From the NCBI GenBank assembly GCA_031178065.1, contig JAPSJS010000002.1, positions 1-64,000 of the forward strand: a DNA stretch of 64,000 bases. The letters are read 5' to 3'. The notes under the pieces are model-generated. The model was not told where the DNA came from and did no database searches. It saw only the letters and a list, made by a program, of their open reading frames with translations. The DNA is from Altererythrobacter sp. Its GTDB lineage: Bacteria > Pseudomonadota > Alphaproteobacteria > Sphingomonadales > Sphingomonadaceae. Position 1 is the first letter of the stretch. The number at the start of each line of letters is the position of its first letter. The translations under genes and the position numbers were made by a program. Shown here in pieces: positions 40,476 through 57,675 of the stretch.

Positions 40476-40493
40476 TGATTTCTTCTCGACCGA

Positions 40494-41204
40494 TTAGTTG
40501 CCAATGCGATCGATCAAGATCGCGCTCGATGTCAGCAGGGGCACGAACTGCAGAATGGTTTCCAGACGTCGGCGTGCTGGAGAATCGCCAACGGTGACGA
40601 TATCGTCGGCGTAGATCCGGGGATCCGGATAGTTGCCGCGCTGGATCGCCTCGATGTTGTAGACACCGATGTAGGTTGTGTCGCCGACGGTGCGCATCAC
40701 CACGACGTCGTCGGTCTTGGCGTACTCCGCGAGGCCGCCGGCATTGTTGATCGTCCGCGCAAGTGTCCGGGAAAGTCGTGCCGGATACGCACCCGGTTTT
40801 TTGACCTCTCCGCCGACGGACACCGTCGGCTGCGACAACTCAGCAGGAATCACGCTGACGCTTGGATCGCGAAGAAATCTGCCCGCCAGTCTCTGGGCGA
40901 TCTTCTCGCCCACCCCGGTTGCGGATTCACCCTCCACGTTGATAGCGCCGATCAACGGGAAATCCAGATTTCCCCCGTCATCCACGATATAGGTACCGCT
41001 CAACGGCTCGGAGTTCAGAACAGTGATTTCAAGCTGATCACCCGGTTGCACTCGGGTGACATAGCCGCCCTCCGGCGGTGGGAGGCTATCGAGGTCAGTT
41101 AATTCAATACCAGGCGCCATTGCCACGGAACGATCCTTGCCGGCGCACCCGGCAAGCAGGCCGGCCGCCGCAAGGCAGACGAGGAAATACCTGATTGTTG
41201 ACAT
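40494..41204 (-). CDS. Polysaccharide export lipoprotein (Wza/BexD family)
   Basis: A 236-residue outer-membrane or periplasmic export protein. Lipoprotein signal ending LLAGC (about residue 20), a PES domain (VTRVQPGDQLEITV to about residue 130) and one SLBB domain (TVSVGGEVKKPGAYP). Shorter than E. coli Wza (379 residues), so it has fewer SLBB domains. ATG 41204 is preferred; ATGs at 41225 and 41231 are alternatives. Situated between the BY-kinase and the Wzy-like gene. Confidence 0.9.
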   Translation of the reverse strand: MSTIRYFLVCLAAAGLLAGCAGKDRSVAMAPGIELTDLDSLPPPEGGYVTRVQPGDQLEITVLNSEPLSGTYIVDDGGNLDFPLIGAINVEGESATGVGEKIAQRLAGRFLRDPSVSVIPAELSQPTVSVGGEVKKPGAYPARLSRTLARTINNAGGLAEYAKTDDVVVMRTVGDTTYIGVYNIEAIQRGNYPDPRIYADDIVTVGDSPARRRLETILQFVPLLTSSAILIDRIGN

Positions 41205-41280
41205 TCTCTTCGTCCAATTTCGCATCTGCATCGAGCACTTACCGGAGCGCTTTCGATAAGCAACCCGGGTCTTCGTAAAT

Positions 41281-42792
41281 TTAGGAGCTTTGTTCGGAGC
41301 GTTGCCTCGTCTTTGTACCGCGCGGACCGTGTTCCCTTGGAGGGGCATCCGTAACGTATGATCCTTTGCTAGCCCAGATCGCGAGCAGAACTGCATAGCT
41401 CGCCAATGCCGGGACACGCAGGGGATAGTCGATGAGCGATGCGATGAACAGGATCGCCAGTGCGATCAGCGCTGCAGCCGGCCCGATGTTAGCGCGAATC
41501 TCGGCTTTCCGTTCGCGCCATATCGCCCACCCGCGAGCGGTGAAAAGCATAATGCCGAAGAGCAGGATCAGAGCTCCCAATAGACCGCCGGTCATCAGCA
41601 CTTCCAGTAAATCGTTGTGCGCGTGGTTCACATATTCCGGCCTGAGAAGCGCATCAGATTCGTGCATACGATAGACATCGTCGAACGAGCCAATCCCTGT
41701 CCCCCATGGGAACGCGTCGACGGCGATTCGCCAGGTTGCCGGCAATAGATCGGCGCGCGTGTCCGCGATCGGGTCTGAGCCGATGAGCCGTTCAAAAGCT
41801 CGATCGCGCCCGAGACCGATGGTGACAAGGCCGAGCCCCGCCACAACCACCGCAGCAACCGCTGCAGGAGCAATGCGCGCCAATGCGGAAGATCGGCGTG
41901 TACGCCGTCTGGCACCCGCAGATGTGATCGCGGTGATAAGCACGGCAGTGACGCATACCGAAAGGACGAGCGTCAGCAACCCAGCGCGTGATCCCGTTAT
42001 CAGAATCAACGGAATGAGCAGCAGCATGCCACCAGTAGCCATTGCGCTGCGCTTGCCTTTGGTGGTTCCTATGTCTTTCCACGACCCCTGCGCGAGTTGC
42101 ACCCAACAGTACATCATCGGGATCAGACTGGCGAGGAAAACGGCTTGATGATTGCGATTGGCGAACAGCCCCACTGGCGAGCCATAACTCGTCAGGCTGT
42201 AGAGGTACAGCGGCCCGCGCGGATTGCCCATAAGTTGCAATAAGCCCCAGAGAGCCGTCAACACACCCAGCCCCAGAATGAAGGTCAACAATCTCTCGCG
42301 CTGCCGCGCGTCAAGCTGGATGGCGAGGATCAGAACAGCACAAGGGGCGGCCAACGCAAACAGAGCATTGCGAGTTGTCTGAGGATCCAGAGTCAGCGGC
42401 CGCCACTGATCATTCAGCCCCAGCAATGCATCTAAATCCGCGACGACCTCCCGTCCTGGGAACGACTGCCAAACCCCGGGCGGCAGGGGGATGAGATGAA
42501 CCGTGGTCAGGACCACGGTAGTCCCTGCTATCGTGACGAGGGGCCAGTAACGGCGAATATGCTCCCGTGAGAGTGTGAGCAGCCCGTATCCTAGAGCAAG
42601 CAACGAGACGGGGCGCAGCAGGATCAGCGATTGCATGTCGGCCCGCGAACTGCCGCCGGTCAGAAAAATGACGATCAGGAATGCGCAAAGTACCCCTAGT
42701 CGGGCCCGTGAAGACAGGGCCCTCTCCAGAAAGCGCGCGCGAGCTCGCGCGCGCTTCGGTCGGTTCGAAGAAGCGTGTGCCGTCTCCATCAT
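41281..42792 (-). CDS. Wzy/O-antigen-ligase-family membrane protein (first copy)
   Basis: A 503-residue protein with about 11-12 membrane segments. The Wzy_C-type motif YVNHAHNDLLEVLMTGG lies near the C-terminus (about residue 395), with an arginine-rich cytoplasmic N-terminus. Such proteins polymerise repeat units or ligate glycans to lipid A or protein. The arrangement beside Wza and Wzc favours the polymerase role, but a second Wzy-like protein is encoded at 48894. ATG 42792 or 42789. Divergent from the CapD gene. Confidence 0.85.
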   Translation of the reverse strand: MMETAHASSNRPKRARARARFLERALSSRARLGVLCAFLIVIFLTGGSSRADMQSLILLRPVSLLALGYGLLTLSREHIRRYWPLVTIAGTTVVLTTVHLIPLPPGVWQSFPGREVVADLDALLGLNDQWRPLTLDPQTTRNALFALAAPCAVLILAIQLDARQRERLLTFILGLGVLTALWGLLQLMGNPRGPLYLYSLTSYGSPVGLFANRNHQAVFLASLIPMMYCWVQLAQGSWKDIGTTKGKRSAMATGGMLLLIPLILITGSRAGLLTLVLSVCVTAVLITAITSAGARRRTRRSSALARIAPAAVAAVVVAGLGLVTIGLGRDRAFERLIGSDPIADTRADLLPATWRIAVDAFPWGTGIGSFDDVYRMHESDALLRPEYVNHAHNDLLEVLMTGGLLGALILLFGIMLFTARGWAIWRERKAEIRANIGPAAALIALAILFIASLIDYPLRVPALASYAVLLAIWASKGSYVTDAPPREHGPRGTKTRQRSEQSS

Positions 42793-43128: not shown

Positions 43129-45114
43129 ATGAAACTGGACCTGTTTTCAGAGAGAACATCGATGCTGCAGCGGGTTCTCGGCAATATGATCGTTTCATCG
43201 GTCGGATGGCTCGGCGCGCTGCCACGGAGGACGCGGCAATTCGTCGTTGCCGCGATCGACGGCGTGTTGTGCTCGATCGCAGTTTGGATGGCCTTCTCGC
43301 TGCGGCTGGGTGAGTTCTATCGTGTGGAAACCAACATTCTGCTGGTTACGGCCGCGGCGCTGGTCTTATGGTATCCTATCGCGAGCTGGCGCGGGGTCTA
43401 CCGCTCCATCATCCGCTTCTCGGGCGCTCGTGCGATGTTCGGTCTGGGAATGGCGGTCGTCATCTACACGACACCAATGACAGTCCTTTTCTTGGCCAAT
43501 GGGTTCGCCGGGATTCCCCGCACGATCGCGTTGATTCAACCCATTATATTCCTTGCGCTGATGGCCATAAGCCGCCTGACGATCCGGTTCGTGCTGATCG
43601 ACATCGTCAACGGGCATTACGCGGACACCGCTCGCAGGGTGGTGGCCATCTATGGTGCAGGCAGTGCCGGTCAGCAGCTCGCCCTCTCGTTGCGACACGA
43701 GCCGCAGGTGCGGCTCGCAGCGTTCATCGACGATGACGTGCGCCTCGCCGGCCAGCAGCTCGACGGAGTAACGGTGCATCCGTCGACGAAGCTCGACTCC
43801 CTTTTGGATAGCAACGACATTGATGAAGTTCTGCTCGCGCTTCCTAGTGCGAGCAGAGCTCGCCGCAAGGCGATCATCCAGGCGTTACAAAAGCATCCTG
43901 TGGCGGTGCGGTCACTACCGAGTGTCGGCAATCTCATCGACGGGAAGGTGTCCGTCAGCGATCTGCGGGACGTTTCAATAGATGATCTTCTCGGACGCGA
44001 TCCCGTGCGCCCGAACGAATTGCTCATCGGGAAAACTGTGACCGGAAAACATGTCATGGTGACAGGGGCCGGCGGATCGATCGGCAGCGAACTTTGTCGC
44101 CAAATACTGCGATCCCGTCCTGCCGAGCTGATCCTGCTTGAGCGCTCGGAATACGCCCTTTACGCGATCGGGGTCGAACTGGAAGCGCTCGCGGAGTCCC
44201 TTGACGTGAGCGTACCCATAATGCCCGTCCTTGGAGACGTTGGGGATCGTGATGCTGTACGGCGGATTTTCGAGAAATGTCAGCCTGAAACGGTATTTCA
44301 CGCGGCAGCCTACAAGCATGTGCCTTTGGTTGAAAGCAATCCGGTCGCGGGCTTGCGCAACAACATATTTGGTACGTTGAATGCCTGCCTTGCGGCCGAG
44401 GAATGCGGCGTGCGCAACTTCGTCCTGATCAGCACGGACAAGGCCGTCCGACCGACGAATGTGATGGGCGCATCCAAGCGTGTGTGCGAACTGATCCTCC
44501 AGGCCCGTGCTCAGTTGCACGGGTTAAAGCGCGATCGGACGATCTTCACCATGGTGCGGTTTGGTAATGTGCTGGGATCGAGCGGCTCTGTCGTGCCGCG
44601 CTTCCAGCGTCAGATCAGGGAAGGCGGCCCCGTCACGCTCACTCACAGGGACGTCACGCGATACTTCATGACGATACCTGAAGCGGCACAGCTCGTCATC
44701 CAGGCGGGTGCGATGGCGAAGGGCGGAGAGGTCTTCGTCCTCGACATGGGTGAGCCAGTGCGCATCCTCGATCTTGCCCGAAGCATGATTCACCTGTCCG
44801 GCATGACCGTTCGTGACGAGCTGAATCCCGAAGGCGACATCGAGATATGCGAGATCGGCCTTCGTCCGGGCGAAAAGCTCTACGAGGAACTGCTCATCGG
44901 CGATAACCCCGAACCCACTGTCCATGAGCGAATTCGACGAGCGAATGAGGTTATGATTTCGTGGGGATCGCTTCAGACCACGCTCGACAGTATGAGCTTG
45001 CTCTTGAGCTGCGGCGATAGCGCTGGAGCCACTCTGCTGCTTCAGGAGTTGGTGCCCGAATATCAATCAGCCGCCGAGGGTGAGCCACTGCGCGTATCCG
45101 AAAAGGCAAGCTAA
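43129..45114 (+). CDS. CapD/FlaA1-type nucleotide-sugar 4,6-dehydratase
   Basis: A 661-residue protein with four N-terminal membrane helices, a CoA-binding-like domain (ARRVVAIYGAGSAGQQL) and a C-terminal SDR domain: TGAGGSIGSELCR (about 310), AAAYKHVPLVE, STDKAVRPTNVMGASKR. This long form (PglF/WbpM-like) converts UDP-GlcNAc to the 4-keto-6-deoxy sugar. With the PglC/D/E-like genes at 55222-57675 it would start a bacillosamine-type pathway. ATG 43129 preceded by GAGG. Confidence 0.93.
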   Translation: MKLDLFSERTSMLQRVLGNMIVSSVGWLGALPRRTRQFVVAAIDGVLCSIAVWMAFSLRLGEFYRVETNILLVTAAALVLWYPIASWRGVYRSIIRFSGARAMFGLGMAVVIYTTPMTVLFLANGFAGIPRTIALIQPIIFLALMAISRLTIRFVLIDIVNGHYADTARRVVAIYGAGSAGQQLALSLRHEPQVRLAAFIDDDVRLAGQQLDGVTVHPSTKLDSLLDSNDIDEVLLALPSASRARRKAIIQALQKHPVAVRSLPSVGNLIDGKVSVSDLRDVSIDDLLGRDPVRPNELLIGKTVTGKHVMVTGAGGSIGSELCRQILRSRPAELILLERSEYALYAIGVELEALAESLDVSVPIMPVLGDVGDRDAVRRIFEKCQPETVFHAAAYKHVPLVESNPVAGLRNNIFGTLNACLAAEECGVRNFVLISTDKAVRPTNVMGASKRVCELILQARAQLHGLKRDRTIFTMVRFGNVLGSSGSVVPRFQRQIREGGPVTLTHRDVTRYFMTIPEAAQLVIQAGAMAKGGEVFVLDMGEPVRILDLARSMIHLSGMTVRDELNPEGDIEICEIGLRPGEKLYEELLIGDNPEPTVHERIRRANEVMISWGSLQTTLDSMSLLLSCGDSAGATLLLQELVPEYQSAAEGEPLRVSEKAS

Positions 45115-45297
45115 AAGGGCCGCTGCCGACCTAGCCACCGCTTGACATGAGGGCGCGCGGGAATAAGCCGACGTTGCTATCCACGTCGCGATCTTCCCGA
45201 ACAGGAAATCCGTCAACTCGTTAGAAGCGCTTCCATCTTTTCTTGCCGCAAACGCGCTGAACCTCTGCAGGCAGTTTGAGAATGAGTACCCGGCCTT

Positions 45298-46458
45298 ATG
45301 AACGGCAATATCAAGATACTCACCATCTTCGGAACTCGGCCCGAAGCGATTAAGATGGCGCCGGTTGTCCGGGTGCTAGCCGAATCCGATGGCATCATTG
45401 CACGGGTTTGTGTGACTGCGCAGCATCGGCAGATGCTCGATCAAGTACTCGCCTTGTTCGGGATTGCGCCGGACTATGATCTAGACCTTATGAAACCGGG
45501 GCAAGATCTTACCGACATCACTTGCAATGTTCTGGCCGGTCTGCGTCCGGTATTAGGTGAGTTTCAACCCGACTTGGTCTTGGTTCATGGAGATACATCG
45601 ACCACCCTCGCGGCATCTCTGGCCGCATATTACCAGCGCATTCCGGTGGGGCACGTCGAGGCCGGTCTCAGGACGGGCGACATTCTGTCCCCGTGGCCGG
45701 AAGAGGTGAACCGTAAAGTGGCAGGTGCAATCACCCGCCTGCACTTCACTCCCACCGAACGATCACAGCGGAATCTGATAGCGGAAAACGTCAGCCGCGA
45801 ACATATCCATGTCACCGGCAACACCGTGGTCGACGCCCTACAAGATGTTGTCGTGCGGATCGAAAGTGATCGCGCGCTGGAATCGGATCTTGCCGCTCGC
45901 TTCGGCCTGAATCCGCAGAAGCGGCTGGTCCTCGTCACCGGACATCGCCGCGAAAGCTTCGGAGGTGGTTTCGAGCGAATTTGCGCGGCCCTTGCGCAGC
46001 TTGCGGAGCGCCCGGACGTGGAGATCGTCTATCCGGTCCATTTGAACCCCAACGTCAAGGGCCCGGTAGAGCGGCTGCTCTCGGGCTTGTCGAACGTACG
46101 GCTGATCGAACCTCAAGATTATCTCCCTTTCGTCTATCTGATGAACCGCGCATCCATCATTCTGACAGATTCTGGCGGCATCCAGGAAGAAGCTCCGTCG
46201 CTTGGCAAGCCAGTTCTCGTGATGCGCGATACGACCGAAAGGCCCGAAGCCGTTGACGCGGGTACCGTGCGACTGGTGGGCACCGACACCGCGCTCATAG
46301 TCGACGGCGTTTCGCGGCTGCTTGATGACCAGGAGGCATATGAAGAGATGAGTTTCGCCCACAATCCTTATGGTGACGGACAGGCGTCGAGACGGATTGT
46401 GTCTGCAATCCGGCAATGGGCTGATGCGCGCCCGGTGAAAGTAGCTGCTGCCGTATGA
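45298..46458 (+). CDS. wecB: UDP-N-acetylglucosamine 2-epimerase
   Basis: A 386-residue non-hydrolysing epimerase that makes UDP-ManNAc. [12 protein letters not shown] (about 10), [14 protein letters not shown], and [15 protein letters not shown] (about 285) are conserved. Its end overlaps wecC by four bases, so the two enzymes act in sequence toward UDP-ManNAcA. Confidence 0.96.
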
Positions 46459-47723
46459 CCGCGCGTTTCGAAACCATATCGGTCGTGGGTCTGGGCTACA
46501 TCGGGCTTCCGACCGCCGCGATGTTCGCCTCGCGAAAGACCAAGGTAATCGGCGTGGACGTGAACGCGCGCGCTGTCGATACCATCAATCGGGGCGAGAT
46601 CCACATTGTGGAGCCCGATCTCGACATTGCGGTGCACTCCGCCGTCACGGAAGGCTACTTGCGCGCATCCACTCAGGCTGAAGTGGCCGATGCCTTCCTG
46701 ATAGCAGTTCCTACGCCCTTTCGGGGCAACGATCACGAGCCCGATCTCAGTTATATCGAGGCTGCGGCGCGCGCGATTGCGCCGGTGTTAAGTCCCGGCA
46801 ACCTGGTGGTGCTCGAGTCCACTTCACCGGTAGGCGCGACCGAACAGCTGGCGGGCTGGCTAGCAGAGGCACGGCCGGACCTCAGCTTTCCGCAGGCCGC
46901 GGGCGATGCCTCCGATATTCGGATTGCCTATTGTCCAGAGCGTGTGCTGCCAGGCAAGGTCATGCAGGAGCTGATCCACAACGACCGGGTGATCGGCGGC
47001 ATGACACCACGGTGCTCGGACGCCGCGGTCGCGCTCTATAAGCTGTTTGTCGAGGGCGATTGCGTGGTCACCAACGCGCGAACGGCGGAGATGGCGAAGC
47101 TGACTGAGAACAGCTTTCGCGACGTCAACATCGCGTTCGCCAACGAGCTATCGGTCATATGCGACAAGCTCGATATCAACGTGTGGGAGCTCATTGCGCT
47201 CGCCAACCGTCATCCGCGGGTCAATATATTGCAGCCGGGGCCCGGCGTCGGCGGTCACTGCATCGCGGTGGACCCTTGGTTTATCGTCTCGAGAACACCG
47301 GATGAGGCGCAGCTTATCCGTGCAGCGCGCGAAGTGAACGATGCAAAGCCTCAATGGGTGCTTCGCAAGGTGCAGGAGGCGGTTGCTCACCTTCTGGAGG
47401 GGAATCCAGGCAAAAGCCCCGCTGATGTCACGGTTGCTTGTTACGGGTTGTCCTTTAAACCGGATATCGATGATCTGCGAGAGAGCCCGGCACTGGCGAT
47501 TGCGCAGGCACTTGCCGGGGCGCATGCTGGTCGGGTGCTGGTCGTCGAGCCCAACGTTGTCGCGCTTCCGGCGACGTTAGAGAGGCTTGAGCTGGTAAGC
47601 ATACAAGACGCGGCAACTGCCGACATACAGCTACTACTCGTTGATCATCGGGAGTTTCGCGCGACGACGCAGCCATCTGGGCAGATCATTGACTGTCGCG
47701 GAATCTGGGTTGGCGGCCAGTAG
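46455..47723 (+). CDS. wecC: UDP-N-acetyl-D-mannosamine dehydrogenase
   Basis: A 422-residue four-electron NAD-dependent dehydrogenase giving UDP-ManNAcA. Nucleotide motif [23 protein letters not shown], and catalytic cysteine in [14 protein letters not shown] (about residue 270). Overlaps wecB. WecC enzymes oxidise UDP-ManNAc rather than UDP-glucose; neighbouring wecB supports that substrate. Confidence 0.95.
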
Positions 47724-47766
47724 GGCTTTGTCCGATAGGTCTCTCCTGCACGGTGCGTCTGCCCTG

Positions 47767-48897
47767 ATGCGCAGAATTGTCTCTAGAAAATCGGTGGTGG
47801 GCTACCAAGCGTTGGCCGCGCTCAACGGATTTGCGTTGCCCGTGGCCGTTCCCTTGATATTCTCTCCCCAGGCGTCAGCGTCTGTCTTTCAGATGTACGC
47901 TATTGCTGTACTGTTGGCGACCATTGTCGATTGTACTGCAAATTCTATGAATGCCTCTGGGAACTCTTCAGTGCCGCTCCTGAGGTGGTCCTACGCCTTA
48001 TGCATAGCTTGGATTTTCTTCAGTCCGTTTTTAGTGATCTTTCCCGCGATCAATTTGGCCCTATCTTTGTCTATCCTCTATATTATCAATAACATGGTCG
48101 CCACTCCTGGATTAAGTCATCTGTATCCGCTCCCACCTGGGTTGCAGGCTACCTCTACTGTCGTCGTTATTATATATGCGCGTGTGACTCAATCTGATGA
48201 AGTAGCTGCATTTATCGCCATGTTATCTATATGCTTCTTTACGTCCGCAATAATTTTAATAACTATCGCCAGCAGATCTACTCATGTGAAATCTCGTCTT
48301 CCACAAAGCGGTCGAACTCTTCCGACATTCAAAGTTATATTTGAAGGAATTGCATCTAGATCCATTATACTAATTACCCAGAACCTGCTAATAGCAATTG
48401 CGCCCCTTTATTTACCTCCGTCCGACGTCGTGCTGGGGCGCGTGGCTCTTTCGGTTCAGAATATGAGTAGATATTTTAACCTTTCGCCGCTCTCCAAATT
48501 TGCGTCGGAGGTGGCTGAGTCCGGGCGCTCGTTCCGCCAAGCCCTAAGGATCGTGGCAATTTCTACACCACTAATGATTCCTGCTGCTTTCGCGCTCACC
48601 GTCTACGCGGATCTCGCGCGAATGCCGCCGACTTCCCCTTGGTGGCTGGCTGCCGGACTTGCGTTGAGCGTTTTTGTACCCTTCACTCCGCACCTCATTC
48701 TTAGTCTTCGCATTAAACGGCCGATTGCCTTGTTATTCGGGCTATCTTTCGTGGGTGGAGGGTGCCTTTTCGTGCTCCTCAATTATGCGAGAGATTTGCA
48801 GTTCATGGGGGTGTATGTGGCGATATCGTGGGCGCTGGCGATGCTTGTTTTAGGATTCGCCTATGTTGATCGACGTGACCCACGGCGAAAACCATGA
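47767..48897 (+). CDS. Wzx-like polytopic membrane protein (possible flippase)
   Basis: A 376-residue protein with about 10-12 hydrophobic segments and few charged loops; no closer family recognised. Position between sugar synthesis and a Wzy-like gene suggests the flippase for lipid-linked repeat units. It is somewhat short for Wzx. AT-richer than its surroundings, as is common for serotype-specific genes. ATG 47767 follows the wecC stop by 43 bases; ribosome site is weak. Confidence 0.6.
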   Translation: MRRIVSRKSVVGYQALAALNGFALPVAVPLIFSPQASASVFQMYAIAVLLATIVDCTANSMNASGNSSVPLLRWSYALCIAWIFFSPFLVIFPAINLALSLSILYIINNMVATPGLSHLYPLPPGLQATSTVVVIIYARVTQSDEVAAFIAMLSICFFTSAIILITIASRSTHVKSRLPQSGRTLPTFKVIFEGIASRSIILITQNLLIAIAPLYLPPSDVVLGRVALSVQNMSRYFNLSPLSKFASEVAESGRSFRQALRIVAISTPLMIPAAFALTVYADLARMPPTSPWWLAAGLALSVFVPFTPHLILSLRIKRPIALLFGLSFVGGGCLFVLLNYARDLQFMGVYVAISWALAMLVLGFAYVDRRDPRRKP

Positions 48898-50036
48898 GCC
48901 TTAAGACCGCACTTTTGTCCATTTGCGTGGCCAGCCTCGCCCTTGGCGTTGACGGGCAGAACATCGACTATGCATATATAGGTTTGGCATTTGGTTGCAT
49001 TGTATGGTTTGGGCTTATTGCGGTTTCAGGTCCGCGGAGGGGTCATTTCTCGGACGATCTGCAGATAACCAGTTTCTTGATGGCTTTATATATACTGTCA
49101 TCGTCTCTGTGGATTTTCGTACAGAAGCTTGATTATTTATCTTTGATGTCTACGGCTCCCCTTATACTGCTTCCGCTATCTTTTATATTTTTTCATGCAA
49201 TTCGTTTATCTAATTCCGAGTGGGAGGAGGTCGATGCGGATAAGGTTTGTGTGTTTGCGGCATTAATCTTTTGCTCGGTTCTGATATTCAATCATACAGC
49301 TGACTATCTGAGTGCCATAGTCACCCCAGCCCGCTTTACGTGGTTCGAGTTCCGCGCGGTGAACCCCCTTCCAATACTGGCGTCAACATTGATCGTGTGG
49401 CGACACGGAATAAGGGCGATCTGGCGCATAGATTTCGTTTTCCTAGCAGTATTTATATACGCAACTAAGTATGTAAATTGGGCCGGCCTCCTCGGAATTT
49501 CCTTCATACTTAGAGGCCTTTTTAGAGCTATGCCTAATGTGTGGTGGTCTGCAGCTCTAATGGGGGTCATTCTTGTCATCAATACGTTTGTCGCGATCTA
49601 CTGGCGGGACATCGCTGGCTTCGCGCCCGGTGAGTTCGAGCGGATCTACGAGATACAGTTTGCATATCATCAGCTCTTCGAAAATCCGGTGTTTGGTGAA
49701 GGCTTTGGCGGTTCATTTGCCAACGCAAGCCTAGAGGACAAATACAGTATGCATAACTTACTTGCATACGTTGTCGCATTCGGGGGACTGGTTGGTGTTG
49801 TTATATTCGCTTATGCGATGACCCGTTATTCACGAGCTAATCCTGGGAAGTCAGAATATTTAGTTGTAGTTTATCTCATTTTGACAGCCACTGCAGCAAG
49901 CTTTAAATTACCGTCGGTTCAACTGTATTTGGGTTTTGCCATTGCCGTCGCAGCTGCCTCGCGCCAGCAGGGTGTTCGCGTTGCGGTGTGCATAGAGCGT
50001 GACCACCCAGCGGGCGCTGCTGATCATGCGAGATGA
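48894..50036 (+). CDS. Wzy-like polymerase (second copy)
   Basis: A 380-residue integral membrane protein with about ten helices. The segment FGEGFGGSF and YSMHNLLAYVVAFGGL near residues 270-305 resembles the Wzy/O-antigen ligase loop with its HN motif. Overlaps the Wzx-like gene by four bases and the following oxidoreductase gene is about 25 bases on. AT-rich composition like its neighbour. Together they may be a transferred polymerase-flippase pair. Confidence 0.7.
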   Translation: MSLKTALLSICVASLALGVDGQNIDYAYIGLAFGCIVWFGLIAVSGPRRGHFSDDLQITSFLMALYILSSSLWIFVQKLDYLSLMSTAPLILLPLSFIFFHAIRLSNSEWEEVDADKVCVFAALIFCSVLIFNHTADYLSAIVTPARFTWFEFRAVNPLPILASTLIVWRHGIRAIWRIDFVFLAVFIYATKYVNWAGLLGISFILRGLFRAMPNVWWSAALMGVILVINTFVAIYWRDIAGFAPGEFERIYEIQFAYHQLFENPVFGEGFGGSFANASLEDKYSMHNLLAYVVAFGGLVGVVIFAYAMTRYSRANPGKSEYLVVVYLILTATAASFKLPSVQLYLGFAIAVAAASRQQGVRVAVCIERDHPAGAADHAR

Positions 50037-50059
50037 TGAATGCCATCCATGGAGATACT

Positions 50060-52183
50060 GTGAAACAAATCCTCCAAGACCTATCAACCGGAACGACTGA
50101 ATTGGTTGAATCGCCCGCTCCCATCGCGCGTCGCGGACAACTGCTGATCGACACCGCCGTTTCCCTGATCTCGGCGGGGACGGAGCGGATGCTTGTCGAC
50201 TTCGGTCGCGCCGGTCTGGTGGCCAAGGCGCGGCAACAGCCCGAGAAAGTCGCGCAGGTTCTCGACAAGGTCCGCACCGATGGCCTGCTTACGACCATCG
50301 ATGCGGTCCGCTCCAAGCTGGGGCAGCCGATACCCCTCGGCTATTGCAACGTAGGGGTTGTGCGGGAGGCGGGACGGGATGCAGACGGCTTTCGTCCCGG
50401 TGATCGGGTGGTCTCGAACGGTCCCCATGCGGACGTGGTGTCCGTGCCCAAGAACCTCTGCGCTCGCATACCGGACGGAGTAAGCGACGAGGCCGCGGCT
50501 TTCACCGTGGTCGGCGCGATCGGGCTCCAGGGTGTGCGTCTCGCACAGCCCACGCTGGGGGAGGCTTTCGTCGTGACCGGCGCCGGCCTCATTGGCCTGC
50601 TCACGGTGCAATTGCTGCGTGCGAACGGCTGCCGCGTTCTCGCCATAGATTTCGACGAGGCGAAGCTCGCTATCGCGCGGAGATACGGCGCCGAGACTTG
50701 CAACCCCGCAAAGGGAGAAGACCCCGTGGCCGCCGGTATTGCCTTCAGCCGCGGCGCCGGCGTAGATAGCGTCATCATCACCGCATCGACCAAGTCGTCG
50801 GATCCAGTGACCCAAGCGGCGCGCATGTGCCGCAAGCGGGGGCGGATCATTCTGGTCGGTGTCACCGGACTCGAGCTCAATCGTGCTGATTTCTACGAGA
50901 AGGAACTCGTCTTTCAGGTTTCCTGCTCATACGGCCCGGGGCGTTACGATTCCGACTATGAGAACAAAGGCCGGGACTATCCCTTGGCCTTTGTCCGTTG
51001 GACCGAACAGCGCAACTTCGAAGCGGTGTTGGATCTCATGGCGGCTGGCCAACTCGACGTGGAACCGCTCATCTCGCATCGCTTTCCCTTCGACCATGCG
51101 CCTGCCGCCTACGACGTGCTCGCAAGCGAGAAGAACGCGCTCGGTATCATTCTGTCCTACGGACACGCTGTCGAGGAACGGCACCATAAGGCAGTGGAAC
51201 TGACGCCAGCCCCCACCGCCACGTCTCAGCCGGTGCTCGGCGTCATCGGGGCGGGCAACTATGCCTCGCGAATGCTCATCCCCGCGTTCAAACGCGGCGG
51301 GGCGGCGCTGCACAGCATTGCGGCCCCGAGCGGCGTCAGCGGCGTCATCCATGGGCGCCGTGCTGGCTTCGCTCGAGCAATGTCCGACGCTTCGGAGCTG
51401 ATCGCCGATCCCGCGATCAATACCGTTGCAATCGCCACCCGGCACGATAGTCACGCAAGCCTCACCGCGGCGGCGCTGACTGCCGGAAAGCACGTCTTCG
51501 TGGAGAAGCCGCTTGCGCTTACGCACGACGAGTTGGCCGAAGTGCGGGCTGCCTACGCTACCGCTGGACGCCAGCTCATGGTTGGCTTCAACCGTCGTTT
51601 CGCCCCGCATGTTCAGAAGATGAAGCGGCTATTGGCGGGGGTCTCCGAACCCAAGGCGATTCTCATGGTGATGAACGCCGGAGCCATCCCTCCCGAGCAT
51701 TGGACGCAGGACCCTGCGGTGGGCGGCGGCCGTATCATCGGCGAGGCGTGTCACCATATCGACCTCATGCGCTTTCTGGTCGGGGCGCCGATCACCGCAT
51801 TCAGCGGCCGCCGAATGGGTGACAACGATGCAGTCCCGACAACGGAGGACAAGGCGAGCATCACTCTAGGATTTGCCGACGGCTCGTTCGGCGCGATCCA
51901 TTATCTCGCGAATGGAGGGGCCTCTTTCCCCAAAGAGCGTGTCGAGGTGTTCGCTGCCGGCCGGACGCTGCAGCTCGACAATTTCGTGGGATTGAAGGGA
52001 TTCAACTGGCCGGGTTTCCGGAAGCAGAGCGTCTGGCGGCAAGACAAGGGGCAGGATAATTGTGCCGCCGCCTTCTTGCGCGCCGTTGAAGGAGGGGGCG
52101 AAGCACCGATTCCGCCAGAGGAACTCTTCGAGGTAGCCGAGGTGACGATCCGGATCGCTGAGCAGCTCCGGCAGCAGGGCTGA
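50060..52183 (+). CDS. Two-domain oxidoreductase (zinc-dehydrogenase fold plus Gfo/Idh/MocA)
   Basis: A 707-residue fusion. Residues about 1-375 form a medium-chain dehydrogenase (AGTERMLVDFGRAGL, VTGAGLIGLLTVQLL); about 395-707 form a Gfo/Idh/MocA oxidoreductase (VLGVIGAGNYASRML, FVEKPLALTHDEL, GEACHHIDLMRFL). Fusions of this kind are found in polysaccharide loci next to heparinase genes. Substrate unknown; oxidation or epimerisation of a sugar is inferred. GTG 50060 matches the start of relatives; ATG 50033 is the alternative. Confidence 0.88.
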   Translation: MKQILQDLSTGTTELVESPAPIARRGQLLIDTAVSLISAGTERMLVDFGRAGLVAKARQQPEKVAQVLDKVRTDGLLTTIDAVRSKLGQPIPLGYCNVGVVREAGRDADGFRPGDRVVSNGPHADVVSVPKNLCARIPDGVSDEAAAFTVVGAIGLQGVRLAQPTLGEAFVVTGAGLIGLLTVQLLRANGCRVLAIDFDEAKLAIARRYGAETCNPAKGEDPVAAGIAFSRGAGVDSVIITASTKSSDPVTQAARMCRKRGRIILVGVTGLELNRADFYEKELVFQVSCSYGPGRYDSDYENKGRDYPLAFVRWTEQRNFEAVLDLMAAGQLDVEPLISHRFPFDHAPAAYDVLASEKNALGIILSYGHAVEERHHKAVELTPAPTATSQPVLGVIGAGNYASRMLIPAFKRGGAALHSIAAPSGVSGVIHGRRAGFARAMSDASELIADPAINTVAIATRHDSHASLTAAALTAGKHVFVEKPLALTHDELAEVRAAYATAGRQLMVGFNRRFAPHVQKMKRLLAGVSEPKAILMVMNAGAIPPEHWTQDPAVGGGRIIGEACHHIDLMRFLVGAPITAFSGRRMGDNDAVPTTEDKASITLGFADGSFGAIHYLANGGASFPKERVEVFAAGRTLQLDNFVGLKGFNWPGFRKQSVWRQDKGQDNCAAAFLRAVEGGGEAPIPPEELFEVAEVTIRIAEQLRQQG

Positions 52184-54003
52184 TGCCCGTCCCCACGAAG
52201 CTTCGAACCTATCTCGCGCTTGGCCCGTCCAATCTGGCGCGGGTCGCGGGCTATCGCGCGGCGTTGCGGCTGCGCATCCATCCGGTGCTTCGCGTACGTT
52301 CGGAATCGCCCACGGGCCTGTTCTTCGCCCGCGCGAAGAGTGCCGATTCGCAGCTGGTGCCCCGCCAAACGTGGCTCGGCGAAGCGCTATATTTTGGCTA
52401 TCACCGCGTCCCCTGCGAAGATGCGCCCGATTGGCATGCAAACCCGTTCCGCCCGGTCGCGCGGGCGGACCCACATGTCCACTGGTCTGCCCTTGCGGAT
52501 TTCGATTCCGCCGTAGGTGACATCAAGACGGTGTGGGAAGCTTCGCGGTTCGACTGGCTGATCGCCATGGCGCAGCGTGCGGCGCTCGGCGACGAGGCGG
52601 AGCTCGAGAGACTGAACGTCTGGCTCGCCGATTGGGTGGAGCATAATCCCCCTTACCGCGGGGCCAACTGGAAGTGTGGACAGGAAGCGTCGATCCGGGT
52701 GATGCATCTCGCGCTCGCGGCCCTGTTGCTAGGCCAGGCCGATTCGCCGCAGCCTTCGCTTTTGCTTTTCATCCAAATGCACCTGGCGCGGATCGCACCG
52801 ACCATAAGCTATGCTATCGGTCAGCAGAACAACCATGGTACGTCGGAGGCGGCCGCGTTGTTCATCGGCGGTAGTTGGCTCGCAGCGCACGGAGACCGGG
52901 AGGGGCATCGATGGGCGGCAACGGGACGCAAGTGGCTGGAGGAGCGGGCCCGCGCGCTAATCATGGCCGATGGCACGTTCAGCCAGTATTCCGTCGTCTA
53001 TCATCGATTGATGCTCGATACCTATTGCTTCGCCGAAACGTGGCGGTCGTTACAGCAGTTGGAGAAGTTCTCGAGCGCATTGTACGAACGCCTACGGGGA
53101 GCGACTAGTTGGCTGCGACAGCTAACGGCCCCGGCGAACGGTGACGCACCCAATCTCGGATCGAACGATGGCGCCCGAATTCTGGCGCTGACCGACGCCG
53201 ATTACCGCGACTTCCGCCCGTCCCTTCAATGGGCTTCCGCTCTATTTCACGGGCGGCGATCGTTGGGAGCCGGGCCTTGGGACCAACAGCTACTTTGGCT
53301 TGGGCTCTCGCCGCCGTCCAAAGCTCTGCCTGAGCTGGCGAGCGAGTCGTTCGATGACGGCGGATTACACGTCCTGCGCCATGGCCGCGCTCGGGCATAC
53401 CTTCGCTATCCTCGCTTTCGATTTCGTCCGAGCCAATGCGACGCGCTTCACGTCGATCTATGGTTGGATGAGAGCAATGTCCTGCGCGACGGTGGCACCT
53501 TCAGCTATAACAGCGGCTGGAAGGATCTGACGTACTTCAGCGGCGTGGCCTCGCATAATACGGCGCAGTTCGACGAACGGGAGCAAATGCCCCGCTTGAG
53601 CCGATTTCTGTTCGGTGCATGGCCTAAGGCTGAGAAGGTTCGGTTGGCCTCGTCTTCGAACAATGGTGCTGGCGCGGCAGCGGGCTATCGGGACTATTGC
53701 GGCGCGGAGCACGTCCGCGCCATCGAACTGAACGAGCGGCAACTGCTCTGCCGGGACCAGCTGGGCGGCCTTGCCGAGAGAGCGGTGATACGCTGGCGCC
53801 TGGAACCCGGTGACTGGCAACTGAGCGACAATCGGATCGGCAATGGAGCATATGAGATCGTGGTTGAGAGCAATGCTCCTTCGGCGGAGCTACGCGTCGT
53901 AAAAGGCAGCGAATCCCGGTACTATCTGCAAAGGAGTGAATTGCCGGTTCTAGAAATTCATTTGCCCGTACCCGCCGTCGTCGAGACGCGTGTGAGCTTC
54001 TGA
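52183..54003 (+). CDS. Heparinase II/III-family polysaccharide lyase-like protein
   Basis: A 606-residue protein. N-terminal alpha/alpha toroid with IGQQNNHGTSEAAALF (about 205) and QYSVVYHRLMLD (about 270), where Asn/His/Tyr catalytic residues lie in the family; then a beta-sandwich with GVASHNTAQFD (about 450). Family enzymes cleave uronic-acid polymers by beta-elimination. No signal peptide is visible, so export or a cytoplasmic role is unclear. It shares one base with the oxidoreductase gene. Confidence 0.85.
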   Translation: MPVPTKLRTYLALGPSNLARVAGYRAALRLRIHPVLRVRSESPTGLFFARAKSADSQLVPRQTWLGEALYFGYHRVPCEDAPDWHANPFRPVARADPHVHWSALADFDSAVGDIKTVWEASRFDWLIAMAQRAALGDEAELERLNVWLADWVEHNPPYRGANWKCGQEASIRVMHLALAALLLGQADSPQPSLLLFIQMHLARIAPTISYAIGQQNNHGTSEAAALFIGGSWLAAHGDREGHRWAATGRKWLEERARALIMADGTFSQYSVVYHRLMLDTYCFAETWRSLQQLEKFSSALYERLRGATSWLRQLTAPANGDAPNLGSNDGARILALTDADYRDFRPSLQWASALFHGRRSLGAGPWDQQLLWLGLSPPSKALPELASESFDDGGLHVLRHGRARAYLRYPRFRFRPSQCDALHVDLWLDESNVLRDGGTFSYNSGWKDLTYFSGVASHNTAQFDEREQMPRLSRFLFGAWPKAEKVRLASSSNNGAGAAAGYRDYCGAEHVRAIELNERQLLCRDQLGGLAERAVIRWRLEPGDWQLSDNRIGNGAYEIVVESNAPSAELRVVKGSESRYYLQRSELPVLEIHLPVPAVVETRVSF

Positions 54004-54004
54004 C

Positions 54005-55225
54005 ATGCACATCCTCTACTTCCACCAGCATTTCTCTACGCCCCGGGGGGCCATCGGCATCCGATCTTACGAGATGGCGCGGCGGCTGCTGCATCACGGA
54101 CATCGGGTGACCATGATCTGCGGCAGCTACGGCGGCGGAAAAACCGGGCTAGAGGGTCCGTTTAACGACGGTGTTCGACGGGGGCGCGTCGATGGCATCG
54201 ACGTGATCGAGTTTGACCTCTCCTACTCCAACAGCGATGGCTTTCTAAAGCGCAGCGGCACCTTCTTGAAGTACGCCTGGGGCAGTCTCAAGATCGCGCT
54301 GAGCGAGCGGTACGATCTTGCTTTTGCTACCACCACGCCATTGACCGCCGGCATTCCCGCCATCGCGGCGCGCTGGTTACGCGGGAAGCCGTTCGTGTTC
54401 GAGGTTCGCGATCTCTGGCCGGAGCTGCCCAAGGCGATGGGCGTGATTACCAATCCGCTGGTCCTGAGCGCGATGTCGGTACTCGAATGGGTGTCCTATC
54501 GAAGCGCCGAGCGCTGTGTCGCGCTCGCGCCGGGAATCGCTGAAGGCATCGCACGACGAGGAGTGAATTCGTCGGCGATCGCCATCGTTCCGAACGGCTG
54601 CGACATTGAAATATTCCGTTCGTCGTCTTCATCTTGGCGCCCTGAGGGGGTGGGCGAGGACGATCTTCTCGCGATCTTCACAGGCACCCACGGCACCGCC
54701 AACGGTCTTGACGCGGTCCTCGATGCCGCCGGTGTGCTGCAGTGGCGTGGGAGAGACGACATCAAGCTTGCGCTCGTTGGCGATGGGCGCTTGAAATCCA
54801 CATTGCAGGAGCGTGCCGAGCGCGAGGGGCTGCGCAACGTGATTTTCCACCCGCCGGTCGACAAACGGCGCTTGGCGGGCTTGATGGCAGCAGCCGACTT
54901 GGGAATGCAGGTTCTCGCGAATGTTCCAGCGTTCTATTATGGGACCTCGCCCAACAAGTTTTTCGATTATATCGCGGCGGGATTGCCGGTCCTGAACAAC
55001 TACCCGGGGTGGCTGGCGGAGATGATCGAGGCAGAAGGATGCGGCCTGGTCGTATTGCCCGATAATGCGTCGGCATTTGCCGATGCATTGGAACGTGCGG
55101 CGGATAATCGTAGCATGCTGAAGACGATGGCGGACCGCGCCGCGAACTTGGCCGAGCGGGAGTTCCAGCGTCAAAAGCTTGCCGATCGCTGGGTAGCTTG
55201 GGTCGCGCAGGGGCGGACGCCATGA
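54005..55225 (+). CDS. WbuB-like family 4 glycosyltransferase
   Basis: A 406-residue GT-B enzyme. MHILYFHQHFSTPRGAIG and SYEMARRLL at the N-terminus and VFEVRDLWPELP are typical of the WbuB group, which transfers deoxy-amino sugars such as FucNAc. Donor lobe: FTGTHGTANGLD, PNKFFDYIAAGLPVL. It is the only family glycosyltransferase in the plus arm besides the initiating enzyme, so it probably adds the second residue. Overlaps the next gene. Confidence 0.9.
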   Translation: MHILYFHQHFSTPRGAIGIRSYEMARRLLHHGHRVTMICGSYGGGKTGLEGPFNDGVRRGRVDGIDVIEFDLSYSNSDGFLKRSGTFLKYAWGSLKIALSERYDLAFATTTPLTAGIPAIAARWLRGKPFVFEVRDLWPELPKAMGVITNPLVLSAMSVLEWVSYRSAERCVALAPGIAEGIARRGVNSSAIAIVPNGCDIEIFRSSSSSWRPEGVGEDDLLAIFTGTHGTANGLDAVLDAAGVLQWRGRDDIKLALVGDGRLKSTLQERAEREGLRNVIFHPPVDKRRLAGLMAAADLGMQVLANVPAFYYGTSPNKFFDYIAAGLPVLNNYPGWLAEMIEAEGCGLVVLPDNASAFADALERAADNRSMLKTMADRAANLAEREFQRQKLADRWVAWVAQGRTP

Positions 55226-55815
55226 AGCGTCTGATGGACATTGCATTGGCGACGGTCGCGCTCCTGTTGCTACTTCCTTTACTTGTTGTTCTCTCGCTGC
55301 TGGTCCGGTCCAAGATGGGTTCGCCGGTGATCTTTCGACAGGTTCGCCCCGGCCGCGGCGGTGCGCCCTTCGAGATGTTGAAGTTCCGCACGATGCGCGA
55401 CGCCGTAGATGCCGATGGTGTGCCACTGCCAGATGCAGATCGCCTTACGCCCTTCGGCCGTTTTCTTCGCTCTACGAGTCTCGACGAATTACCGGAGCTG
55501 TGGAACGTGCTGAGGGGCGATATGAGCCTCGTCGGCCCTCGGCCCCTCTTAATGGAATACCTTCCGCTTTACAGTACCGAACAGGCTCGGCGGCATGAGG
55601 TGTGCCCGGGCCTCACCGGCTGGGCGCAAATCAACGGACGGAACGCGCTCAGCTGGGACGAGAAATTCGCCCTGGATGTATGGTACGTCGACAACCGGAG
55701 CATGAGGCTGGACCTGCGGATACTTTGGTTGACCGTCCTGAAGGTCCTTCAGCGTGACGGTATTAGCGCAGACGGGGAGGCTACCATGCCCCGGTTTCAA
55801 GGGAGAGCAGAATGA
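55222..55815 (+). CDS. Initiating phosphoglycosyltransferase (PglC-like)
   Basis: A 197-residue enzyme with one N-terminal membrane segment (about residues 5-27), transferring a sugar phosphate to undecaprenyl phosphate. Core: KFRTMRD, RSTSLDELPELWNVLRGDMS (Asp-Glu active pair), GPRPLLMEYLPLY, PGLTGWAQINGRN. The motif string is very close to Campylobacter PglC, whose substrate is UDP-diNAcBac. ATG 55222 overlaps the preceding stop. Confidence 0.92.
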   Translation: MKRLMDIALATVALLLLLPLLVVLSLLVRSKMGSPVIFRQVRPGRGGAPFEMLKFRTMRDAVDADGVPLPDADRLTPFGRFLRSTSLDELPELWNVLRGDMSLVGPRPLLMEYLPLYSTEQARRHEVCPGLTGWAQINGRNALSWDEKFALDVWYVDNRSMRLDLRILWLTVLKVLQRDGISADGEATMPRFQGRAE

Positions 55816-56459
55816 CTCGGTTAATCGGCATCTATGGCGCGAGCGGATTTGGCCGTGAGGTCATGTCGATCGCGCGCGAGCAGTATTCGGGCGAAAGGAC
55901 AGAGTTCGTATTCATCGACGACGCCGGAGGTGAGTCAACCAGTAACGGACACGCCGTGGTCAATTGGTCTAGGTTTCTCTCTAGGCCAGCCCAGGATCGC
56001 TGCGTCGCTATTGCCATTGCTGACTCACGTATTCGCGAGGTGTTGACCGATCGCTGCGTTGAAGCGGGGGTCCCCATCCGCAGTATCCAAGCAGGAAACG
56101 TCTGGTTGGGCGACGCGATATCGCACGGAGAGGGCGCGATATTACAGCCATTTGTGTCCTTGACTGCCAATGTACGGATCGGACGCAGCTTTCACGCAAA
56201 TATTTACAGCTATGTCGCTCATGATTGCGTGATCGGCGACTACGTCACTTTCGCTCCGAGAGTCATGTGCAACGGGAACGTGCGTATCGAGGATCGAGCT
56301 TACATCGGGACCGGTGCAATACTTCGCCAGGGAACACCCGACAAACCGCTTGTCATCGGCGCCGGCGCCACCGTCGGAATGGGCGCTGTCGTGACGAAGG
56401 ACGTACCGCCCGGCGTCACCGTCATCGGCAACCCTGCCCGGATCATGGAAAAGAGATGA
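55812..56459 (+). CDS. PglD-like sugar acetyltransferase (NeuD family)
   Basis: A 215-residue protein with an N-terminal Rossmann-like domain (GIYGASGFGREVMSIA, residues 5-20) and a left-handed beta-helix (about 100-205). The likely catalytic His is in YVAHDCVIGD (about 137), as in PglD, which acetylates UDP-4-amino sugars. Overlaps the phosphoglycosyltransferase gene. Acetylates the product of the next gene's aminotransferase, if the bacillosamine pathway assignment is right. Confidence 0.9.
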   Translation: MTRLIGIYGASGFGREVMSIAREQYSGERTEFVFIDDAGGESTSNGHAVVNWSRFLSRPAQDRCVAIAIADSRIREVLTDRCVEAGVPIRSIQAGNVWLGDAISHGEGAILQPFVSLTANVRIGRSFHANIYSYVAHDCVIGDYVTFAPRVMCNGNVRIEDRAYIGTGAILRQGTPDKPLVIGAGATVGMGAVVTKDVPPGVTVIGNPARIMEKR

Positions 56460-56460
56460 A

Positions 56461-57675
56461 ATGCTGAACACCGCCTTTGCCCCTTGGCCCAGCTTCACCG
56501 AGGAGGAGGTGAACGCGGTTTCCGCGGTCTTGCGCTCCAATCGCGTCAACTACTGGACGGGCGAGGAATGTCGTCAGTTTGAGCGCGAGTTCGCAGAGTG
56601 GTCGGAATGCACGCATGCCATCGCGCTGGCCAACGGGACGGTCGCGCTGGACCTCGCGCTGCACGGGTTGGGCATTGGCGCGGCGAACGGCGGTTCGCCC
56701 ACCGATGAGGTCATCGTTACCCCACGGACTTTCCTTGCCTCGGTCAGCTGCGTCGTCAACGCAGGCGCCGTTCCGGTGTTTGCCGACGTCGAGCGCGACA
56801 GCGGGAATATCTCCGCGGCGACGATCGCGCCGCACCTGACCGACCGCACCCGTGCAATTATCGTCGTTCATCTCGCCGGCTGGCCGGCGGACATGGATCC
56901 GATCATGGCGCTTGCCGAACCGCGCGGCATCAAGGTGATCGAGGACTGCGCGCAGGCACACGGCGCGCGCTACAAGGGGCGCAGCGTCGGATCGATCGGG
57001 CACGTCGGCGCGTGGTCCTTCTGTCAGGACAAGATCATGACCACGGGCGGCGAGGGGGGCATGGTCACGACCAACGATCCCGACATGTGGTCGCGCATGT
57101 GGTCGTTCAAGGACCACGGGAAGAGCTGGGATGCGGTATACGAACGTTCGCACCCGCCCGGCTTCCGCTGGGTGCACGAGAGCTTCGGCACGAACTGGCG
57201 AATGATCGAGATTCAGGCCGCGATCGGCCGTATCCAGCTCCGGAGAATGGCCGACTGGACGGCGGCGAGAACGCGGAATACCGATGTCCTCTACCAAGCG
57301 CTTGCGCCGCATTCCGGCGCGGAAGGCATTGTTCGGACCCCCGTGATCGGGGACCCGGAGAGCGTACACGCGCAGTACAAGTTCTATGCCTATGTCCAGC
57401 CGAACCGCCTGGCCCCCGGCTGGGACAGAGACCGGATCGTCGCCGAGATCGTGGCCGGCGGCGTGCCGTGCTTCCAGGGCAGTTGCTCCGAAGTCTATCT
57501 CGAGAAAGCCTTCGATGGCACCGATCTGCGGCCGCCCGAGCGGCTCCCGGTCGCTCGCGAGCTGGGAGAGACGAGCATTATGTGGCTGGTCCACCCGACA
57601 CTGACCGAAGACGAGATTCGCAAGACGACCGAAGTCAGCGCGGCGGTTCTGGAACGCGCCACCAGGCAGGAGTAA
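56461..57675 (+). CDS. DegT/DnrJ/EryC1-family PLP aminotransferase (PglE-like)
   Basis: A 404-residue sugar aminotransferase. PLP lysine in SFCQDKIMTTGGEGGM (about residue 190), with EDCAQAHGARYKGR before and GTNWRMIEIQAAIGR after it. It would add an amino group at C4 of the UDP-4-keto sugar made by the CapD-type enzyme. Direct neighbour of the PglD-like and PglC-like genes; last gene of the plus arm. Confidence 0.92.
   Translation: MLNTAFAPWPSFTEEEVNAVSAVLRSNRVNYWTGEECRQFEREFAEWSECTHAIALANGTVALDLALHGLGIGAANGGSPTDEVIVTPRTFLASVSCVVNAGAVPVFADVERDSGNISAATIAPHLTDRTRAIIVVHLAGWPADMDPIMALAEPRGIKVIEDCAQAHGARYKGRSVGSIGHVGAWSFCQDKIMTTGGEGGMVTTNDPDMWSRMWSFKDHGKSWDAVYERSHPPGFRWVHESFGTNWRMIEIQAAIGRIQLRRMADWTAARTRNTDVLYQALAPHSGAEGIVRTPVIGDPESVHAQYKFYAYVQPNRLAPGWDRDRIVAEIVAGGVPCFQGSCSEVYLEKAFDGTDLRPPERLPVARELGETSIMWLVHPTLTEDEIRKTTEVSAAVLERATRQE

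Follow-up and report, generated by a model that had tools for sequence, protein, structure and literature searches.

A 64,000-nucleotide stretch of an Altererythrobacter sp. genome (GenBank assembly GCA_031178065.1, contig JAPSJS010000002.1, positions 1 to 64,000; hereafter the window) carries a polysaccharide locus with a plus-strand operon at 43129-57675. The locus is a Wzx/Wzy-type, N,N'-diacetylbacillosamine (diNAcBac)-initiated capsule or exopolysaccharide locus, an already known kind. Within it lies a conserved gene pair encoding a bi-domain oxidoreductase (OXR) and a protein of the heparinase II/III fold (HEP), and the combination of a known kind of locus with this pair gives a precise, testable prediction of the uronate. 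In the reading that we favor, to which we give an even chance, HEP would be a C5 epimerase and OXR a C3 epimerase or a helper of HEP, and the N-acetyl-D-mannosaminuronic acid (ManNAcA) supplied by WecB/WecC would enter the polymer as a 2-acetamido-L-hexuronate (L-HexNAcA) linked to diNAcBac.

OXR (50033..52183) and HEP (52183..54003) are plus-strand open reading frames (ORFs) that share a one-base overlap and are placed between the genes for a Wzy-like polymerase and a GT4 glycosyltransferase. HEP has 606 amino acids and contains the N and C domains of heparinase II/III. Its structural model (mean predicted local distance difference test [pLDDT] score of 93.2) displays the toroid and beta-sandwich of the heparinase III/PL12 fold. 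The model superimposes on HepC (4mmh) with a Z score of 24.8 and a root mean square deviation (rmsd) of 6.3 over 476 aligned residues, on PL17 alginate lyases with Z scores of 21.6-23.2, and on human dermatan sulfate epimerase 1 (6hzn) with a Z score of 18.8 and an rmsd of 3.8 over 487 aligned residues. The last match is not diagnostic, because the fold is common to lyases. N217 and Y273 of HEP align with an Asn and a Tyr of HepC that we take to be its catalytic pair, and H458 falls outside the HEP-HepC sequence alignment. These three residues are invariant in 33 of 33 sequences, 20 from the subfamily of the window protein (HEP-A) and 13 from a diverged subfamily (HEP-B). In a wider set of 29 HEP-A-like proteins, N217 and Y273 are found in all 29 and H458 in at least 90%. 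Residues K164, E222, Q268, R275, and H423 are fixed in HEP-A and are mostly Glu, Asn, Glu, Ala, and Ser in HEP-B, a pattern that fits two subfamilies with one chemistry and putatively different substrates or linkages.

Heparinase III and PL12 lyases are secreted and have a signal peptide. Kyte-Doolittle hydropathy showed that the window HEP lacks a hydrophobic N terminus, and no signal peptide was seen. Among the 29 aligned HEPs, an N-terminal stretch of 15 residues scoring above 2 on the same scale occurs only in that of L012 (the comparison loci are numbered L002 onward), a protein with a doubtful start codon. This bears on the possibility that HEP works as a genuine lyase in quality control, removing stray or misplaced polymer or lipid-linked repeat, with plain ManNAcA in the polymer. 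The fold and the catalytic residues are those of lyases, but Wzy-dependent polymerization takes place in the periplasm, whereas no signal peptide is seen in the HEP family, and a lyase would leave OXR without a role. The heparinase-like VV0358 of Vibrio vulnificus, a putative HEP relative only, was suggested by its authors to be a possible clean-up lyase, yet VV0358 mutants lose the capsule (PMC6037467).

The OXR model (mean pLDDT of 85.4) has a full fold in each of its two halves, an MDR half without zinc ligands and a Gfo/Idh/MocA half. In the MDR half, Y104-C105 stands where sorbitol dehydrogenase has its His-Glu, the sequence ahead of residue 105 contains no Cys, and Y104 is present in 21 of 21 sequences. 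OXR was rejected as a zinc-dependent MDR dehydrogenase, given that the catalytic Cys/His/Glu ligands are absent. In the Gfo half, E491-K492-P493 and H574 are conserved in the same 21 of 21 sequences; the EKP lysine and second-domain histidine are motifs of the Gfo/Idh/MocA family. The alcohol dehydrogenase and Gfo folds are uninformative with respect to the substrate; Gfo/Idh enzymes such as WbpB/WlbA oxidize C3 of UDP-GlcNAcA. No DNA-level match to two OXR queries was found in Escherichia coli genomes at the sensitivity of blastn.

OXR and HEP are a conserved pair. We sampled 246 genomes of the order and 398 of the phylum, with the genome of the window counted in both. Window-type HEP is present in 10 and 8 of these genomes, respectively, and OXR is present in 23 and 17. 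In the order, OXR adjoins HEP in all 10 HEP genomes, and a heparinase-fold neighbor accompanies OXR in 22 of 23. Beyond those 10, 12 of the other 13 OXR genes, the exception being that of L090, have as neighbors a GT4 gene (26-31% identity) and a heparinase-fold ORF of the diverged HEP-B type, which scores 35-105 bits against the HEP-A profile; the gene order is reversed in L079, L080, and L082. In the phylum sample, a heparinase-fold ORF lies on the same strand within about 3 kb at 13 of 18 OXR places (L100 weakly). Pairs of OXR and a heparinase-fold gene annotated as "alginate lyase family" are also found in polysaccharide loci of Actinomycetota and Bacteroidota, namely, on a plasmid of Streptomyces sp. 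KN37 (L034, 7992-12166) and in Parabacteroides distasonis (L031, 13600-17285). In loci from several phyla, OXR and HEP are separated by a gene for a distant epimerase of the WecB family (32-34% identity) (L007, 8862-10001; L017, 8241-9341; L024; L026; and L029).

The synteny was followed further in 36 distinct loci with window-type HEP (L002-L021, L033, L044-L052, and L060-L066, with L064 dropped as a repeat of L020), a set that leaves out nine farther loci (L022-L030) and the HEP-B loci. OXR is in the fetched stretch of 30 of them, and GT4 (at least 54% identity) is near HEP in all 36, as a contig-end fragment in L051 and by position in L052. GT4 is present in 10 of the 246 genomes of the order, nine of which are HEP genomes. 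In L007, L021, L046, L048, and L060, GT4 is 62-72% identical where the phosphoglycosyltransferase (PGT) is only 32-49% identical (57-59% in L051 and L052). Because the identity of GT4 stays high where the PGT diverges, GT4 seems to track HEP rather than the first sugar. Close relatives of WecB/WecC are near HEP in 25 of the 36 loci, with L019 showing WecC only, at its edge. In L062, a close WecB is combined with a dehydrogenase of the TviB type, and L008 ends too early to tell. Moreover, WecC is found within 25 kb of 14 of the 23 OXR genes of the order versus 3 of 147 control PGT places, taken among the matches listed and coming from 99 genomes (P = 4e-12, with genomes treated as independent).

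A previously published operon appears, from matches at the level of primers and amplicon, to be the same pair. In Pseudomonas aeruginosa PA14, zbdP-hepP (PA14_23420-PA14_23430) encodes a bi-domain dehydrogenase and a heparinase in which PSORTb detected no export signal (PMC5732420). Of the zbdP primers published, three out of four match OXR when translated: RVLAID at residue 201 (6 of 6 residues), KRGRIV at 268 (5 of 6), and SEDKAS at 604 (5 of 6). The 219-bp product of For1-Rev1 corresponds exactly to OXR residues 201-273. The fourth primer, spanning the gene end, gave no match (3 of 6 residues). When shuffled zbdP primers were compared with the window OXR, 2 of 248 trials reached 5 of 6 and none reached 6. 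The hepP primers match HEP-B, with 6 of 6 residues for PLSLRI and LSPMYH, the latter holding the catalytic-Tyr motif, and 5 of 6 for DWQADR and EGWEPY. The fifth, hepP-For2, does not match HEP-B (4 of 6), and its match to one HEP-A sequence (6 of 6) is taken for chance. Shuffled hepP primers reached 5 of 6 in 5 of 200 trials and never 6, and with the window HEP itself the hepP primers performed no better than shuffles.

The zbdP-hepP pair lies in the O-antigen cluster of PA14. Lee 2006 assigns the two genes to O-antigen biosynthesis and to region PA14R38, in an entry that states no reaction (PMC1794565), and by locus number the pair is flanked by wzz, wbpK, wbpL, and wbpM (PMC2658670). The O antigen of PA14 has the repeat 4)-alpha-L-GalNAcA-(1-3)-alpha-D-QuiNAc-(1-3)-alpha-L-Rha, composed of N-acetyl-L-galactosaminuronic acid (L-GalNAcA), N-acetylquinovosamine (QuiNAc), and rhamnose (PMC2997053). 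The HepP paper never uses the term O-antigen in its main text (PMC5732420), and in the open-licence literature searched we found neither a link between HepP and sugar biosynthesis nor anything on an OXR-HEP pair in a capsule.

In the pathway that we propose, the dehydratase, aminotransferase, and acetyltransferase would convert UDP-GlcNAc to UDP-diNAcBac, and the PglC-like enzyme would transfer diNAcBac-1-phosphate onto undecaprenyl phosphate. In parallel, WecB would invert C2 and WecC would oxidize C6, giving UDP-ManNAcA. The L-galacto configuration differs from D-manno only at C3 and C5, and L-gulo only at C5. A cytoplasmic HEP with its Asn-Tyr-His intact would invert C5 via the proton abstraction typical of its fold, and OXR would either invert C3, with one domain oxidizing and the other reducing the sugar, or help the inversion of C5 by transient oxidation. 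The ManNAcA uronate would thus become N-acetyl-L-gulosaminuronic acid (L-GulNAcA) or L-GalNAcA. GT4 would join the uronate to diNAcBac, with HEP acting before GT4 at the UDP level or after it at the lipid-linked level, and the disaccharide would be flipped, polymerized, and exported by Wzx, Wzy, Wzc, and Wza. The two reactions and the configuration of the sugar are predictions; if they hold, HEP loci without OXR should give L-GulNAcA and loci with both genes L-GalNAcA. A wider proposal is that OXR-HEP, as a heparinase-fold C5 epimerase and a redox C3 epimerase contained in one polypeptide, is a widespread cytoplasmic two-enzyme route from D-ManNAcA, UDP- or lipid-linked, to L-GulNAcA or L-GalNAcA, that it is the missing L-GalNAcA route of PA14, and that HepP is an O-antigen enzyme. 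We advance this tentatively, at somewhat less than an even chance.

Several points weigh against C5 inversion by HEP together with OXR. No activity is known for the pair apart from the plate assay of HepP, and neither the fold nor the catalytic residues separate a lyase from an epimerase. The window HEP (HEP-A) and the HEP-B-like HepP of PA14 belong to different subfamilies, and wecB/wecC are putative members of the PA14 cluster. OXR is absent from the fetched stretch in 6 of the 36 loci (L012, L016, L021, L033, L065, and L066), and 5 of the 18 OXR places of the phylum sample (L094-L098) have no heparinase-fold ORF within 3 kb, that of L098 being 3.6 kb away. Nine of the 36 loci are without close WecB/WecC (L004, L007, L011, L012, L017, L050, L051, L052, and L066). 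One of these, L011, has TviB and a TviC-like epimerase instead, which we read as a UDP-GalNAcA route. Because of L011, of the TviC-like epimerase of L007, and of the TviB of L062, the idea that a D-manno uronate accompanies every HEP is weakened. A closer look at the enzymes of these exceptions did not support a ManNAc3NAcA (WbpA/B/I) route for them, although, once 4neq is set aside, the PDB entries most related to the L007 epimerase are WbpI-type enzymes.

The loci without OXR or without close WecB/WecC could also mean that the pair has nothing to do with the uronate and instead modifies some other residue or produces another nucleotide sugar. In line with this explanation, a UDP-sugar dehydrogenase is absent within 100 kb in L066 and from the whole contig of L004. 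Set against it are the linkage to WecC, far above that of the control, and the presence of another UDP-sugar dehydrogenase nearby in 7 of the 9 loci that lack close WecB/WecC; moreover, known heparinase-fold enzymes act on uronates. We consider such an unconnected role improbable.

The experiments with PA14 also count against the proposed pathway. Recombinant HepP (28 ug protein) cleared heparin on a plate, which fits a lyase (PMC5732420); the section describing the test includes no mutant-protein control. Unlike the hepP mutant, the zbdP transposon mutant had a well-developed biofilm and kept most of its virulence (80% of worms killed) (PMC5732420); zbdP is listed as attenuated in Lee 2006 (PMC1794565) and in follow-up screens. 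Because the phenotypes of the two mutants differ, ZbdP and HepP may not share one obligatory path. The clearing of heparin speaks for the quality-control lyase described above, but such a lyase would leave ManNAcA in the polymer, and the PA14 O antigen has L-GalNAcA instead (PMC2997053). We consider a clean-up lyase rather unlikely. The same C5 proton abstraction could alternatively dehydrate an unsubstituted terminal ManNAcA, by beta-elimination of the C4 hydroxyl, to a 4,5-unsaturated uronate that OXR would modify to a deoxy or otherwise altered uronate. This would account for a lyase-type enzyme in the cytoplasm beside an oxidoreductase, but the L-GalNAcA of the PA14 O antigen is intact and 4-linked (PMC2997053), and no sugar of this kind turned up here, in work that did not search for one. 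We regard dehydration as very improbable.

With respect to the remainder of the operon, every named gene is an intact ORF with a strong family match, exceeding what chance would give, and the six enzymes of the original prediction (dehydratase, aminotransferase, acetyltransferase, PGT, WecB, and WecC) were all found where it had placed them. The PglF/WbpM-type membrane UDP-GlcNAc 4,6-dehydratase (43129..45114, plus strand, as are all genes of this arm) has transmembrane (TM) segments, CoA_binding_3, and Polysacc_synt_2 (405 bits), and its nearest solved structure is WlaL, which we take to be a synonym of PglF (301 bits versus 168 for CapD). The UDP-4-keto-sugar aminotransferase (56461..57675; DegT, 295 bits) is Pcryo_0638-like, with 583 bits to 7l7x (Pcryo_0638) and 171 to the next structure. 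The PglD/WeeI-like UDP-4-amino-sugar N-acetyltransferase (55812..56459; Hexapep and PglD_N) scores 278 bits to 4m9c, presumably the Acinetobacter WeeI, and 253 to 7l7y (Pcryo_0637). The PglC-like monotopic PGT (55222..55815; Bac_transf, 217 bits) scores 216 bits to 8g1n, a diNAcBac-1-phosphate transferase, versus 124 to WbaP. In the synthesis of UDP-2,4-diacetamido-2,4,6-trideoxy-D-glucose, the roles of Pcryo_0638 as aminotransferase and of Pcryo_0637 as acetyltransferase have been tested by assay (PMC8040287). Since all four enzymes have their nearest solved relative in the diNAcBac pathway, the proposal that this locus makes UDP-diNAcBac and starts its glycan with diNAcBac-1-phosphate is, on homology, well supported, and the aminotransferase is predicted to give the D-gluco product.

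The UDP-GlcNAc 2-epimerase WecB (45298..46458; Epimerase_2, 403 bits) and the UDP-ManNAc 6-dehydrogenase WecC (46455..47723; UDPG_MGDP_dh_N, 182 bits) exceed their NCBIfam equivalog cutoffs, with 510 bits versus 210 for TIGR00236 and 721 versus 459 for NF008286. The locus thus very probably makes UDP-ManNAcA, as originally proposed. With the OXR-HEP pair in the same operon, however, ManNAcA need not be the sugar that ends up in the polymer, and plain ManNAcA there is doubtful. The GT4 (54005..55225), the proposed uronate transferase assigned by its domain match, is the sole glycosyltransferase-domain protein besides the PGT among 18 proteins scanned between 37160 and 60057, in agreement with the single further glycosyltransferase noted earlier; WecB gave a glycosyltransferase-like match below threshold only. 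The short, possibly disaccharide, repeat that had been suggested is supported by the presence of one PGT and one GT4 in the window and likewise in L002 and L033, the copies on plasmids. We infer a probable disaccharide, which in the favored reading would consist of L-HexNAcA and diNAcBac.

From wecB through the aminotransferase gene, the genes overlap or are at most 44 bp apart, and the gap from the dehydratase gene to wecB is 183 bp. Seven genes had not been named before: those for OXR, HEP, the Wzx- and Wzy-like proteins, and, on the minus strand, the Wzy/ligase-like protein, Wza, and Wzc. A Wzx-like flippase (47767..48897; 9 predicted TM segments) and a Wzy-like polymerase (48894..50036; 8 predicted TM segments) have no family match and were assigned by position and topology only; the PGT, Wzc, and Wza of the Wzx/Wzy-dependent set were assigned by family. 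In L002, an ORF between WecC and OXR is 41% identical to the Wzy-like protein. The G+C content of the two membrane protein genes (47767-50036) is 0.48-0.49, compared with 0.58-0.65 for the other plus-arm genes and roughly 0.65-0.70 for the flanking DNA.

The minus arm (37160-42792) is probably part of the same locus, because the plasmid copies L002 and L033 carry the same genes downstream of the aminotransferase gene. It encodes a Wzy_C/O-antigen ligase-like membrane protein (41281..42792; PF04932, 65 bits; 9 predicted TM segments), a Wza/OPX outer membrane export protein with an uncertain start codon (40494..41417; Poly_export and SLBB), and a Wzc-type polysaccharide copolymerase/tyrosine autokinase (38325..40475; Wzz, GNVR, and AAA_31, with TIGR01007 above cutoff). 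The last gene of the arm, h395 (37160..38347), encodes a protein with one N-terminal TM segment and no Pfam or NCBIfam match, with weak homologues (20-24% identity) at the equivalent position beside Wzc in L002, L033, L050, and L075. A small membrane ORF after the aminotransferase gene (57755-58189) has no family match and a G+C content of 0.68, as in the flank, and is probably outside the locus.

If the proposed roles of HEP and OXR are correct, one conserved enzyme pair would explain rare L-amino-uronic acids in many bacteria, and a fold otherwise known from secreted lyases and polymer epimerases would gain a cytoplasmic member. A published P. aeruginosa "virulence heparinase" would become a sugar-biosynthesis enzyme. 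Polymer structures would also be more predictable from genomes, and the finding of WecB/WecC next to OXR-HEP would cease to be taken as a sign of ManNAcA.

Among known systems, the nearest locus found is L003 of Sphingopyxis. Plasmid pl3 of Sphingobium sp. AntQ-1 (L002) has the same genes in the same order from dehydratase to aminotransferase, together with the Wzy/ligase-like, Wza, and Wzc genes; it differs from the window in being typed as conjugative, in having all genes in one direction, and in having glmS at the start. The entire polysaccharide locus of that plasmid, glmS included, spans 3608-27153. The plasmid of Sphingobium sp. CFD-2 (L033, 12402-15800) has the same locus, but no OXR between the Wzy gene and HEP. 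The enzymes for UDP-2,4-diacetamido-2,4,6-trideoxy-D-glucose are of the same kinds as those of Psychrobacter cryohalolentis (Pcryo_0638/0637), Acinetobacter (WeeI), and Campylobacter jejuni (PglF/E/D/C), whereas the polymers of these systems differ from that of the window. Human dermatan sulfate epimerase 1 and heparinase III (PL12) have the same fold as HEP and act on long polymers outside the cytoplasm. The Vibrio polysaccharide of Vibrio cholerae contains an L-HexNAcA like that proposed here, L-GulNAcA, which its authors suggest originates from D-ManNAcA by C5 inversion; the C5 epimerase is not named in the available passages of that paper (PMC3901696). PA14 zbdP-hepP resembles the window in its OXR-HEP operon, in the domain layout of ZbdP, in three primer motifs at the same places, and in a HEP without an export signal. 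It differs in that HepP looks like HEP-B (1653-bp gene) rather than the 606-amino-acid HEP-A, in that the second sugar of its repeat is QuiNAc and not diNAcBac, and in that HepP was published as a heparinase of virulence.

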